From: Pseudobutyrivibrio sp.
Lineage (GTDB): Bacteria > Bacillota > Clostridia > Lachnospirales > Lachnospiraceae
NCBI GenBank assembly: GCA_017557435.1
Contig: JAFYYR010000014.1
Location: 1-61,694, forward strand
Reading direction: 5' to 3'
DNA: 61,694 nucleotides
Part shown: in pieces, positions 18,103 through 31,129 of the stretch
Position numbering within the stretch: the stretch's first letter is position 1
How the letters are laid out: each line of letters begins with the position of its first letter
Program-made: the position numbers and the translations under genes
The notes under the pieces: model-generated
The model's database searches: none
What the model was told of the DNA's origin: nothing
Seen by the model: only the letters and a program-made list of their open reading frames with translations

Positions 18103-18705
18103 TTACTGCTGTAGAGCCACAATTGCATTGTATAAATCGTCGTATTCTTCGAATGCTGGATACTGTGGATAGTCATTTTTAATAGCCTCAGTAGTTCTGA
18201 AAAGGAAGCCTGCCTTTGATGCCTGAATCATAGCTAAATCATTAAAGCTATCTCCGCTGGCAATTGTCTCAAAGCCACATGACTGAAGAGCCTTAACTGT
18301 AGTAAGCTTGCTCTTGTCACATCTCATCTTATATCCTGTAATTTCGCCATTATCACCAACAATAAGCTCGTTGCAGAAAATAGTAGGCATGCCAAGCTTT
18401 TCCATTAAAGGTCCTGCAAACTGTGAGAAAGTATCACTGATAATAATTGTCTGTCCAAATGCTCTAAGCTTATCTAAGAACTCCTTAGCTCCTGGAAGTG
18501 GATCAATGCCAGCGATTGTCTCCTGAATCTCCTTAAGACCTAAGCCGTGCTCCTTTAAGATATCAATACGATATTTCATGAGCTTGTCATAATCTGGCTC
18601 ATCTCTTGTTGTCTTCTTAAGCTCAGGAATACCTGTAGCCTCAGCAAAAGCAATCCAAATCTCTGGAACCAAAACACCTTCTAAATCTAAGCAAGTAATA
18701 TACAT
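18103..18705 (-). CDS. thrH: Phosphoserine phosphatase / homoserine phosphotransferase ThrH
   Basis: ThrH is a HAD-superfamily enzyme that removes phosphate from phosphoserine and can pass it to homoserine. The ThrH-type opening YITCLDLEGVLVPEIWIAF contains the nucleophile DLEG, and the later IIISDTFSQF and ASGDSFNDLAMI supply motifs II and IV. The length of 200 aa matches ThrH. It follows hom on the same strand with a structured 84-nt element between them, so a role in threonine (homoserine phosphorylation) or serine synthesis is likely. No classical thrB or thrC lies in the window. Confidence 0.88.
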   Translation of the reverse strand: MYITCLDLEGVLVPEIWIAFAEATGIPELKKTTRDEPDYDKLMKYRIDILKEHGLGLKEIQETIAGIDPLPGAKEFLDKLRAFGQTIIISDTFSQFAGPLMEKLGMPTIFCNELIVGDNGEITGYKMRCDKSKLTTVKALQSCGFETIASGDSFNDLAMIQASKAGFLFRTTEAIKNDYPQYPAFEEYDDLYNAIVALQQ

Positions 18706-18731
18706 AACAATTCTCCAATTTCTATTAGTAC

Positions 18732-18815
18732 GCCAGTTACGGCTACAAGCCTTAGAGTCTCTCAGCTCAACTACATGTTTCGCTTGAGAGACCTAAGAGC
18801 TTGATGCCTACTGGC
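18732..18815 (-). ncRNA. 84-nt structured element upstream of thrH, copy 1
   Basis: Read on the minus strand the whole element folds into one long hairpin: GCCAGT/ACTGGC, an A/GTA internal loop, a 10-position stem with two mismatches, a single bulged T, CTTAG/CTAAG, then GTCTCTC/GAGAGAC. It ends 26 nt before the thrH ATG. Element 21819-21903 has the same layout with compensatory base changes. It may be a cis-regulatory RNA, an mRNA-stability element or a small palindromic mobile repeat; I cannot name a known family. Confidence 0.6.
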
Positions 18816-18885
18816 TCTTTTAATATTTATAGTTACATTAAGTTTTCAATTTACAGCATTACATTAGATTTATCTACCACTAATT

Positions 18886-20082
18886 TTAGTAGAAACGAAT
18901 CACTGAAATAATACCGCCAAGTGCTGCTGCACGCTCCTCGAACTCTGCCTCAGACATCTCCGCTGTAACAAAGCCTGTCTCATTGTCTAAGTCAAGGCTA
19001 GCATACTCAACTTTGCCAAATTCATTCTCGATATTAGACTGTAAAGCAGAAGTTCTAACGAAGAAACGATATCTCTGCTCTAATGGATTAGCAAGTGTAA
19101 GCTTGTCCGCATCCCAGCCTACCTTAACCTGTCTATTTGTATTTCTAGCAAGGAATACCATATCGCCAACTACTGCTGATGCTGTAGGAAGTGCACCTGC
19201 GCCAGCGCCATAGTACATAGACTCACCAAGCATATTTCCCTTTACAGAAACAGCGTTCATAACGCCTGCTACATGATAAAGCATCTGCTCTGGCTTAATC
19301 ATAAATGGAGCTACACGACATGAATATGTATCTCCCTCCTTAACGCTTCTAGCAACAAGCTTGATGCTGCATCCCATTTCCTTAGCATACTTGAAATCTG
19401 TAGAAGAAATCTTGCTGATACCCTCTGTAGGAATATCATTGAAATCAACTGTCTTTCCAGAAACAAGTGATGTAAGAATTGCAATCTTACGGCAGCTATC
19501 ATGACCCTCTACATCAGCTGTTGGGTCCTTCTCTGCATAACCAAGGGCCTGTGCCTCAGCAAGAATCTCATTATAATCGCTACCAAACTGTTCCATGTTT
19601 GTGAGCATGTAGTTAGTTGTACCATTGCAGATTGCATCGATCTCCTCGATAACATCACCTGTAAGACATGCTGTAAGTGTACGGATAATTGGAATACCGC
19701 CGCCAACTGCTGCTTCAAACACGAAGTTAACGCCGTGCTTGTCAGCGATTTCCATAAGTTCTGCGCCCTTGTCAGCTACCAGGGCTTTATTTGAAGTAGT
19801 GACAGACTTTCCAGCTTCGAGCATTTCCTTAACAAATGTGAAGGCAGGCTCCACACCACCCATAGTTTCAACGACAATCTGTACCTCTTCATCTTTTGCA
19901 ATCTTCTTGTAGTCCTTAACGAAGCAATCCTCGTGTGGGTCACCAGGAAAATCTCTCAAGTCCAAGATATATTTAAGCTCAAGTTCCTCACCTAATCTAG
20001 CCTTAATAATATCCTTGTTTGTATCAAGAACTTTTGCTACACCGGAACCAATTGTTCCGTATCCCATAATTGCTGCTTTCAT
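18886..20082 (-). CDS. hom: Homoserine dehydrogenase
   Basis: This NAD(P)-dependent enzyme reduces aspartate semialdehyde to homoserine, the branch-point step toward threonine and methionine. The Rossmann start MGYGTIGSGVAKVL, the catalytic-domain AAVGGGIPIIRTL and CNGTTNYMLTNM, and YAEKDPTADVEGHDSCRKIAILTSL-type segment are clear. At 398 aa it carries only a short C-terminal region after the catalytic domain (AEMSEAEFEERAAALGGI), so an ACT-like tail may be reduced. A separate ACT-domain protein is encoded 4 bp upstream, suggesting allosteric control in trans. Confidence 0.95.
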   Translation of the reverse strand: MKAAIMGYGTIGSGVAKVLDTNKDIIKARLGEELELKYILDLRDFPGDPHEDCFVKDYKKIAKDEEVQIVVETMGGVEPAFTFVKEMLEAGKSVTTSNKALVADKGAELMEIADKHGVNFVFEAAVGGGIPIIRTLTACLTGDVIEEIDAICNGTTNYMLTNMEQFGSDYNEILAEAQALGYAEKDPTADVEGHDSCRKIAILTSLVSGKTVDFNDIPTEGISKISSTDFKYAKEMGCSIKLVARSVKEGDTYSCRVAPFMIKPEQMLYHVAGVMNAVSVKGNMLGESMYYGAGAGALPTASAVVGDMVFLARNTNRQVKVGWDADKLTLANPLEQRYRFFVRTSALQSNIENEFGKVEYASLDLDNETGFVTAEMSEAEFEERAAALGGIISVIRFY

Positions 20083-20657: not shown

Positions 20658-21795
20658 TTAGTCCTCTGCTGTTGCTCCACGGTCTGGACAACCAAGAGAA
20701 AGCCACTTCAGATAGGCATTCATAAACGGAGTAAGCTTGCCGTCTAGGACTGCATCTGCATTGCCTGACTCCTCACCTGTACGAAGATCCTTGACCATAG
20801 TATATGGCTGCAATACGTAAGAACGAATCTGATTGCCCCAACCAATTTCTGAGACCTCTCCTCTAATTCCACTGGCCTTGGCCGCATTCTCCTCCTGCTT
20901 AAGTAAAAGGAGCTTAGTCTTAAGCATCTGCATAGCCTTATCCTTGTTCTGGAACTGACTACGCTCATTTTGACAGGTTACAACTATTCCTGTAGGAAAA
21001 TGTGTGATACGTATTGCGGAGCTGGTTTTATTAATATGCTGTCCACCAGCACCTGATGAGCGATATGTATCGATACGAATATCCTCATCCTTAATCTCAA
21101 CATCTACATCCTCTTCTATATCAGGCATAACATCACATGATGCAAATGAAGTCTGTCTCTTACCCTGTGCATTGAATGGAGAAATTCTAACAAGTCTGTG
21201 GATACCCTTTTCTGATTTAAGGTAGCCGTAGGCATTTTCTCCATTAACCTGGAATGTGACTGATTTGATACCCGCCTCATCACCCTCCTGATAATCAAGC
21301 TCCTCAACAGAAAATCCTGCATCTGAAGCCCAACGAGAATACATGCGGTAAAGCATCTGAACCCAATCACAAGCCTCCACACCGCCTGCTCCAGAATGAA
21401 GTGTAACAATAGCGCTATCACCATCATACTCTCCTGATAGAAGAGTCTTCATTCTAAGTGTCTCTAAATCGTTTTCAAACTCTTCGATGAGAAGGCCAAC
21501 AGTATCAACTATCTCCTGGTCTTCCTCCTCATTGCCAAGTTCGATGTAATCTTCTATTTCCTTATATAGGTCCTCAAGCTTATCGATGATTGATACATCA
21601 TCCTTCATTGACTTAAGCTCTTTCATTTTATTAGTAGACGCTTGCGCATCTGTCCAAAAGTCTGGAGCCTCCATCTCGCGCTCAAGCTCTTCTATACGAG
21701 CTTTCTTAGCTGCGACGTCAAAGTGAATCCCTCACTTCCGTCATAGAATTTTTGTGCGACGCAAGTCGCTGTTTGAACTGATCTAGTTCTATCAC
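20658..21795 (-). CDS. prfB: Peptide chain release factor 2, programmed +1 frameshift
   Basis: RF2 releases peptides at UGA and UAA. Translation starts at GTG 21795 (GAGGTGAT 7 nt upstream) and reads 25 codons, VIELDQF to VRDSL, to an in-frame TGA at 21720-21718 in the context CTT TGA C. A +1 slip then enters the main frame with DVAAKKARIEELE. A GAGGG stretch five bases ahead of the CTT can act as the internal SD. The SPF stop-codon tripeptide (RISPFNAQ) and the catalytic GGQ (SGAGGQHINK) are intact. The total is about 378 aa. The frameshift provides the well-known RF2 self-regulation. Structured element copy 2 lies 23 nt upstream. Confidence 0.95.
21718..21723 (-). other. Programmed +1 frameshift site of prfB
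   Basis: CTT TGA followed by C is the conserved slippery codon and poorly read stop of bacterial RF2 genes. The upstream frame ends here; the downstream frame is open to 20658. Confidence 0.93.
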
Positions 21796-21818
21796 GAAAT
21801 CACCTCTTTTCATTGCTC

Positions 21819-21903
21819 GCTTGTTACGTCTACAATCCTTAGATACTCTTTGTCGGACTAGAATGTCCTTACAAAGAGCACTAAGAGATTGTAGACTACA
21901 AGC
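21819..21903 (-). ncRNA. 85-nt structured element upstream of prfB, copy 2
   Basis: On the minus strand GCTTGT/ACAAGC, an A/GTA internal loop, a perfect 10-bp stem GTCTACAATC/GATTGTAGAC, a bulged T, CTTAG/CTAAG and CTCTTTGT/ACAAAGAG form one rod capped by a GGAC/GTCC loop stem. It ends 23 nt before the prfB GTG. Compared with copy 1, at least four base pairs have changed on both sides while the internal loop, bulge and CTTAG/CTAAG stay identical. Confidence 0.6.
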
Positions 21904-21987
21904 TATTCATAAATAACTATTCCCGCTATAACTATCTCTGCCATTAGTTCCTCTAGGGCTTGCTTTGGCACAATTGCCGTTGGGTTA

Positions 21988-23271
21988 CTATTGGCGCAAT
22001 ACTTCTAAAGCCTTTTGAAGCTGGTTGTCAAATTCTACAGCATACTCATCATCCTCGCCACCTAAGAATTCATATTCAAGTACGATATCCGGTGTGATAC
22101 CCTGTCCATGGATACATTCTCCACTAGGTGTGTAATACTTATGAGTAGTCAGCTTAACTGCTGAATCATCCTGCAACTTAAAGCTAGTCTGAACTATTCC
22201 CTTGCCGTATGTCTGTGTGCCAATGATAGTTCCATACTTAAAATCACGTATAGCTCCTGTGAAAATCTCAGCGGAAGATGCTGTATTTCCATTTACAAGT
22301 ACAACAGTAGGAATCTCCTTGTGGCTGGCATCTGAATTATAATCATGTCGATTGCCTGCCTTGTCCATTGTGTACATTACTGTACCCTTTGGAAGTAAGT
22401 AATCCAAAATATTAGTAGCTGTATCTACTATTCCGCCGCCATTATTTCTCAAATCATAGATTACAGATGTCATGCCCTGAGACTCTAAATCCTCAAAAGC
22501 TTTCTCAAATTCCTTATCTGTACTTCCTGTAAATTGAGAGATCTGAATATAGCCGATGTTGTTATCAAGCATCTTATAGGCAACAGTCTCTACTTCAATA
22601 ATATCTCTAACTAATGTAAGCTCAATCTCTTCGCCTTCTCTGTCGATAACAAGATTTACCTCTGTACCCTCATCACCGCGAAGGTATTTAGATACATAGT
22701 CCTCAAGTGAATAGTTAACGCCCTTATGACCATCTGCAGATACGATAATATCTCCTTCTTTTATACCACCTTTTTCAGCTGGAGAATCTTCATATACTTT
22801 TGTAACTACAACCTCTCCTGTGTCAGCATCCTTTTGAAGACCTGCACCAATTCCTCCAAAGTTACCATTGACCACACTGCTGTATTCTTCGTATTCCTCT
22901 GGTGTAAAATACTGAGAATATGGATCTTCAAGGCTATCAAATACTCCATGATAAGCACCATTTTGAAGAGTTTCTTGATCCACATCATTAAAATAATAAG
23001 CGTTAATCAGTTCCTCCAAATATGATAACTTGTAGTCAGAATTTCCCATAAGCTTAGCATTCTGAGTATCTATATAGCTTTTGCTTATAGCCATTGTAAT
23101 AGCGATACCAACAATAATGCCTATAAATACATGTAGGGCTGTAAATACCCCCTTATGTGCTTTCTTAGGGCGTGGCTCATCCACCTCTACATGAGTATCC
23201 TTTTTAACTTCCTCTACTTCCTCTTCCTTATTGACACTTTCATTTGTGCCTTCAAATTCTTCATTCATCAT
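21988..23271 (-). CDS. ctpA: S41 family C-terminal processing peptidase
   Basis: This is a membrane-anchored carboxy-terminal serine protease. An acidic, charged cytoplasmic leader of about 45 residues is followed by one TM helix (VFTALHVFIGIIVGIAITMA), a PDZ domain (about residues 125-215, GGIGAGLQKD, GIKEGDIIVSADG) and the protease domain with serine in NGNTASSAEIFTGAI and lysine in GTQTYGKGIVQ. The unusually charged N-terminal tail (KEEEVEEVKKD) is notable. It lies downstream of ftsX behind a hairpin terminator. Such proteases often process envelope proteins; the substrate is unknown. Confidence 0.92.
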   Translation of the reverse strand: MMNEEFEGTNESVNKEEEVEEVKKDTHVEVDEPRPKKAHKGVFTALHVFIGIIVGIAITMAISKSYIDTQNAKLMGNSDYKLSYLEELINAYYFNDVDQETLQNGAYHGVFDSLEDPYSQYFTPEEYEEYSSVVNGNFGGIGAGLQKDADTGEVVVTKVYEDSPAEKGGIKEGDIIVSADGHKGVNYSLEDYVSKYLRGDEGTEVNLVIDREGEEIELTLVRDIIEVETVAYKMLDNNIGYIQISQFTGSTDKEFEKAFEDLESQGMTSVIYDLRNNGGGIVDTATNILDYLLPKGTVMYTMDKAGNRHDYNSDASHKEIPTVVLVNGNTASSAEIFTGAIRDFKYGTIIGTQTYGKGIVQTSFKLQDDSAVKLTTHKYYTPSGECIHGQGITPDIVLEYEFLGGEDDEYAVEFDNQLQKALEVLRQ

Positions 23272-31057: not shown

Positions 31058-31129
31058 CTGGCCCACAAGGATTCGAACCTTGAAATGACGGAGTCAGAGT
31101 CCGTTGCCTTACCATTTGGCGATGGGCCA
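31058..31129 (-). tRNA. tRNA-Gln (anticodon CUG)
   Basis: The acceptor arms TGGCCCA/TGGGCCA pair, with discriminator G at 31058. The anticodon loop CTCTGAC gives CUG, reading CAG. The T-loop GGTTCGAATCC and a D-arm with AATGGTAAGG are present. At 72 nt with no encoded CCA it is a typical tRNA-Gln. Confidence 0.93.

Follow-up and report, generated by a model that had tools for sequence, protein, structure and literature searches.

The rod-like hairpin in the spacer between hom and thrH belongs to a group of related hairpins that recur throughout the genome of the window (the whole stretch of 61,694 nucleotides that was analysed) and in other genomes of its genus. We consider it reasonably probable that these rods form a dispersed family of non-autonomous palindromes, restricted to one genus and with a unit of about 85 nt, which are or were mobile, whose fold is under selection in the sense RNA, and which exert a cis effect on the mRNA. 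Mobility is deduced from the patchy occupancy of sites, from nesting and from the dispersed copies, whereas the cis effect is argued by analogy with the ERIC and NEMIS repeats as extracts of PMC2229807 describe them.

The two window copies and their fold

The original prediction had placed a hairpin between hom and thrH, which both lie on the minus strand, and its coordinates were right, as was the gap of 26 nt between the rod (from 18732) and the start codon of thrH (18705); a Shine-Dalgarno-like GGAG lies in this gap at 18713-18716 (Table 1). Both window copies were folded as plus strand with 10 nt per side; the rod is nearly self-complementary. The minimum free energies were -46.1 kcal/mol for the thrH copy (z -7.5) and -43.4 kcal/mol for the copy at 21819-21903 (z -8.5), and none of 200 shuffles did as well in either case, which bears out the predicted hairpin. 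For both copies the minus strand is the best-scoring strand of the covariance model (cmsearch 18715-18830, 122.9 bits, with 31.0 bits on the plus strand; 21802-21918, 91.0 bits). On this strand, the thrH rod runs through GCCAGU, an A x GUA internal loop, GGC, CAAGC, a bulged U and CUUAG, and returns through CUAAG, GCUUG and finally ACUGGC.

Table 1. Positions of the two rods and of the features around them in the window
Feature	Positions	Strand	Remark
Rod-hairpin element, hom-thrH spacer copy	18732..18815	-	Sense = hom/thrH transcript
Spacer from rod to thrH ATG	18706..18731	-	Read from the sequence
thrH (name from the original prediction)	18103..18705	-	Gene downstream of the rod; ORF list
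hom (name from the original prediction)	18886..20082	-	Gene upstream of the rod; ORF list
Second rod copy	21819..21903	-	Between gene 21988-23271 and prfB; 23 nt before prfB GTG
prfB	20658..21795	-	Main ORF 20658-21674; PCRF and RF-1 domains (Pfam)

The thrH protein has no Pfam match at 1e-10, and its best named relatives are five Pseudobutyrivibrio loci with 84-92% identity. For prfB, the probable start is the GTG at 21793-21795, and a frameshift-like CTTTGAC lies at 21717-21723 (both by eye), similar to the site at which release factor 2 genes undergo programmed frameshifting; a script scan detected one of the two forms CTTTGAC and CTTTGAT at 28 of 29 prfB loci. Two tRNA genes on the minus strand (1596-1681 and 31058-31129) are the only matches in the window at the Rfam gathering score. 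The rod itself stays below the gathering threshold of Rfam 15 (best sub-threshold family mir-306, 27.3 bits against 52); the original prediction had named no riboswitch or ribosomal leader with this layout.

Family size and conservation of pairing

BLAST returned 42 matches within the own genome at an E value of up to 10. The best of these and the second window copy made up an alignment of 21 copies, from which the covariance model R1 was built. R1 found at least 80 matches in the own genome at E up to 1 (the best 150 of 895 candidates were scored), and a rescan of the stretches around the matches, with an E limit of 0.01, yielded 81 rows, or 77 after removal of 4 antisense duplicates. Matches also occur in 26 of 28 genomes of the same genus, with 6 to at least 60 per genome when 60 candidates were scored in each, so that the further copies anticipated by the original prediction do exist. 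Deeper scoring at E up to 1e-4 brought the number to 71 in G012 and 104 in G013; the two genomes of the genus without R1 match are G007, with a completeness of 86%, and G020, with one of 83%. None of 32 other genomes (8 from other genera of the family, 24 from elsewhere in the order) was matched, and among 397 genomes of the family only two were, both of the same genus, at a depth of 9 candidates per genome at which weak relatives could be missed. The 80 named thrH loci contain a single rod match, in an uncultured Pseudobutyrivibrio. The family appears limited to one genus, probably Pseudobutyrivibrio.

While the sequence of the rods changes, their pairing is kept. The two window copies differ on both sides at 9 of 30 predicted pairs with pairing retained, and all the changes listed beforehand (C-G to T-A, A-T to T-A, and G-C to T-A twice) are among these nine. 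In the 21-copy alignment, standard pairs fill 97.5% of 646 cells; the share falls to 82.1% once columns are shuffled and to 27-41% once the partner is slid. Double changes are found at 21 of 31 pairs, and the proposal of a structured element with real covariation is thereby supported. The 77 own copies comprise 2139 Watson-Crick, 79 G-U, 10 A-C and 93 other combinations in 2321 cells read on the sense strand. At a median pairwise identity of only 61%, at least 90% of the pairs are kept in 73 of the 77 copies (lowest value 80%), although a structure-based search favours folding copies and decayed ones are therefore under-counted. The two most similar own copies are 95% alike and the next pair 92%, which gives no sign of a recent burst.

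These pairs also carry information about the strand. G-U and A-C are mirror mutations, and the excess of G-U on the sense strand therefore points to the sense RNA. The excess recurs in copies from other genomes (68 to 20), and although more than a third of the wobbles fall on just two pairs, it persists after removal of the two richest ones (44 to 10 in the own genome, 40 to 18 in 86 copies from other genomes). It seems that the RNA strand is under selection, and of the two forms originally proposed, RNA or cruciform, the asymmetry favours the former. The ratio is 15 to 8 in antisense copies against 91 to 17 in sense copies (Fisher p 0.044, with G013 copies that are not independent of the own ones), a contrast that is only suggestive as a sign of RNA selection in place.

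A palindrome acting at the DNA level, in which pairing is kept by a cruciform function or by template-switch correction between its arms and transcription is incidental, is accordingly a distinctly unlikely explanation. It would account for the common G-C to C-G or A-T to T-A changes with few intermediates, for the inversion of a rod within one stem at cysK and for tandem and inverted neighbouring rods. However, arm correction predicts no G-U excess of 79 to 10 or 68 to 20, of which a leading-strand mutation bias could explain a part (about 1.3 to 1 by our estimate, at a GC skew near 0.12), and such correction should have eliminated the conserved bulged U and A x GUA loop.

Gene context and turnover of sites

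Based on simple longest-ORF calls, 66 of the 77 own copies and 54 of 71 in G012 lie between co-directional genes, the placement expected of an ERIC-like element. In the own genome these comprise 52 sense and 14 antisense copies, besides 8 flanked by convergent genes, 2 flanked by divergent ones and 1 with one side unknown; the 71 copies of G012 divide into 47 sense, 7 antisense, 16 convergent and 1 divergent. The median distance from the rod to the start codon on the sense side is 23 nt (quartiles 14 and 51; 113 own and other copies), and from the rod to the stop codon of an antisense next gene 20 nt (quartiles 11 and 30; 47 copies). A special anchoring of the 3' end of the rod to start codons was considered and found weak, as upstream spacers in G012 are often as short. 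In G012, by our reading, 61 of the 71 copies follow the leading strand (13 of the 16 between convergent genes) and most neighbouring genes do likewise, so that replication and transcription are inseparable as causes of the sense bias. Neighbouring rods in inverted order with facing 5' ends were seen at C24:47038-47257 and C11:548374-548651 of G013 and at C18:59391-59607 of the own genome.

The genes behind the rods encode, among others, a dihydroxy-acid dehydratase, phosphoglycerate kinase, PolC, a 5'-3' exonuclease, an Era-like GTPase, a formyltransferase and a FabA-like protein. Of 20 downstream proteins submitted to Pfam (19 of 47 listed and prfB), 19 were matched, nearly all to different families, and the unmatched one is thrH. 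A riboswitch or protein-responsive leader with control over thrH (and prfB) would be favoured by the conserved internal loop and by a sense rod lying immediately ahead of a Shine-Dalgarno-like site. It is nevertheless extremely improbable: the 77 detected copies adjoin genes of many families that share no common pathway, 14 copies are antisense between co-directional genes, Rfam gives no match at the gathering score, and no rod match lies at thrH in 20 of 28 relatives. The rod is not a ligand sensor, and the idea of a cis-regulator tied to thrH or to one pathway finds no support. A general caution follows, namely that covariation among paralogues need not imply a pathway-specific riboswitch.

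Occupancy of orthologous sites is patchy. Upstream of thrH, a rod is present in 9 of 29 genomes; in G005, G009 and G022 among others, only a few nt separate the end of hom from the Shine-Dalgarno site of thrH in a rod-free arrangement, and in G008 and G023 the spacer holds a different hairpin. Another hairpin repeat, rich in G+C and bearing a motif similar to CAAGCGCGAG, is present in some of the same spacers (in L103 and L104 ahead of thrH; in L194 and L199 of G013). The 29 prfB loci show 14 rods and one collapsed remnant (G026, L135) upstream of the gene and three further rods 3' of it. Neither a duplicated target site nor a clean empty one could be fixed; rod-free spacers exist, with diverged flanks.

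For a comparison with G013, 38 of the 77 own sites were alignable in 20 G013 stretches chosen for their rods, and by our reading most sites carry a rod or remnant in both genomes, an outcome that this choice favours. At the 17 sites whose rods are at least 90% alike, the rod is 97.4% identical, the adjoining 30 nt 86-89% and the distant flanks 91.5%, while at the 21 sites below 90% these values are 72.4% for the rod and 91.2% for the distant flanks. With flanks near 91% in both groups, rods are thus either kept or much changed; a deletion between tandem copies is a likely event behind the changed rod at L142:2627. Pair changes were counted where at least 80% could be aligned, which holds for 33 of the 38 sites; 16 of the 17 most alike among these also belong to the group at or above 90%. 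These 17 sites show 9 one-sided changes that kept and 14 that broke a pair, 3 compensated and 1 both-sided broken; the corresponding numbers are 12, 33, 17 and 5 for the 10 sites of 75-90% identity and 8, 11, 38 and 3 for the 6 sites below 75%. At pairs, the own thrH copy and that of the nearest relative differ by one-sided changes only (3 kept, 4 broken, 0 compensated). Compensation is dominant only among the least similar rods, a pattern compatible both with stepwise selection and with replacement by another folded copy. A similar ambiguity applies to the rod upstream of cysK in seven genomes, where 6 pairs vary, one being U-U in six and 5 standard in all seven, among the latter one with C-G, U-G and U-A forms: most of the changes co-occur in G025, so that block replacement is possible.

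One-sided changes, many of which break a pair, in the thrH copy and in the orthologous pairs of higher similarity, the collapsed remnant at prfB and the patchy occupancy are what a selfish or relic palindrome family would leave, that is, one without host function, which required its structure for past movement alone and whose copies now decay. We regard this as rather unlikely in view of the sense bias (52:14 and 47:7), of the most alike sites, where the rod exceeds both its adjoining 30 nt and the farther flanks in identity, albeit in a group picked for rod identity, and of the fact that most detected copies still fold, though the search favours folded ones. A non-autonomous palindromic repeat, the second possibility raised originally, fits better than the cis-regulator, with the reservation that copies adjoin gene boundaries and that no target-site duplication has been demonstrated.

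Nesting, possible mechanism and relation to known repeats

Some rods are found within rods. At prfB of G008 and G025, a central rod is flanked by 5' halves in tandem on one side and by a mirror series of 3' halves on the other, giving three levels by eye. Under a strict rule, nested copies number 2 of 77, 4 of 86 and 2 of 18 in three sets, against shuffled-flank means of 0.2, 0.3 and 0.2, or 8 of 181 rows against a summed mean of 0.7; at least 2 of the 18 prfB rows recur in the other sets, and variant motifs, as in the G008 copy, escape the rule. Other rods sit on terminator-like stems. After guaB, the 24 readable loci divide by eye into 10 with a bare short hairpin, 11 with a rod atop such a stem (2 sense, 9 antisense) and 3 with another long hairpin; one more locus is cut off, and a second G024 copy also bears an antisense rod. 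After cysK, the rod is inverted between the own genome and G013 within the same stem. A U run follows the stem of the guaB and cysK copies but was not seen at the two window copies (by eye).

The apex of three own copies contains about 70 extra nt, and two of them share an insert. This insert has two strong matches in G013, at the sites orthologous to own L155:15934 and to own L147:10467, at the latter of which the own rod lacks it. It therefore looks like a different hairpin that entered rods, and a longer parent element was dropped as an explanation on the same grounds. A second small element of two hairpins and about 70 nt is thus found at the rod apex in own L155:15934-16118 and L162:2620-2806 and, in G013 rods whose own orthologues lack it, in L182 (compared to own L172:2592-2708, with no duplication of flanking bases evident by eye) and L180 (compared to own L147:10467-10583).

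Taken as a mobile palindrome family with a selected sense-RNA fold, the rod unit would be, or have been, able to move and to enter the loop of an existing hairpin, its own included, and its sense RNA would have to fold, either for spreading or for function. In an operon spacer, the rod may then act as a cis structural element of the mRNA just upstream of the ribosome-binding site; its most likely effect, judged from ERIC and NEMIS, would be to set the processing or stability of the flanking cistrons, and an alternative fate would be to cap a terminator. A more radical version, an RNA-borne mobile hairpin whose sense RNA is joined into the loops of other RNA hairpins (terminators, leaders or itself) and returned to DNA, we consider very doubtful. 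If it were true, selection would act on the RNA fold, nesting would lengthen hairpins step by step, and the rods would be a counterpart of the mitochondrial palindromic clusters. In this genus, tens of gene junctions per genome carry a stable rod directly before the ribosome-binding site or on a terminator-like stem. The rods thereby offer a natural experiment on intercistronic hairpins and on the spread of palindromes without a known enzyme, and the entry of hairpins into hairpins is a possible route to long structured RNAs.

None of the PMC papers listed in our literature search describes such a repeat in Pseudobutyrivibrio or Butyrivibrio in its title or abstract. According to extracts of PMC3733652, GTAG-tagged REPs with their RAYT transposases are palindromes with a GTAG motif, alternative complementary stem residues between subfamilies and G-T pairs. 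They measure 20-40 bp with a terminal unpaired GTAG, whereas the rod has about 85 nt with GUAG inside the stem, where all 21 aligned copies have its G and T in pairs. A RAYT-driven REP is ruled out, as PF01797 (Y1/RAYT) is absent from 19 of 29 genomes including the own one (10 have one), and G000, G012 and G013 lack it and yet carry about 77 or 71-104 rods. The search for a mobilising enzyme, which covered PF01797, thus brought up no candidate in the own genome, and no junctions of the unit were found either. The GC clusters of yeast mitochondria (GC42) are likewise mobile palindromes, which occur by themselves or fused to a second cluster at one homologous site (extracts of PMC4478555); they are organellar with AG target-site nucleotides, and no homology is implied.

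For NEMIS/Correia, small repeats whose transcript stem-loops are proposed targets of RNase III (extracts of PMC2229807), the difference is that no target duplication was fixed for the rods. In lifestyle the rods resemble ERIC/IRU, and they probably affect the processing or stability of neighbouring mRNA. As the same extracts report, ERIC/IRU is an intergenic repeat of 127 bp that is co-transcribed with its neighbours and whose orientation affects transcript stability, and its mobilising enzyme is not established. The rods share about the same size class and the intergenic position. They differ from ERIC/IRU in sequence (compared without alignment) and in host phylum, and in that they keep their pairing at 61% identity, that some of them nest, and that some crown terminator-like stems.
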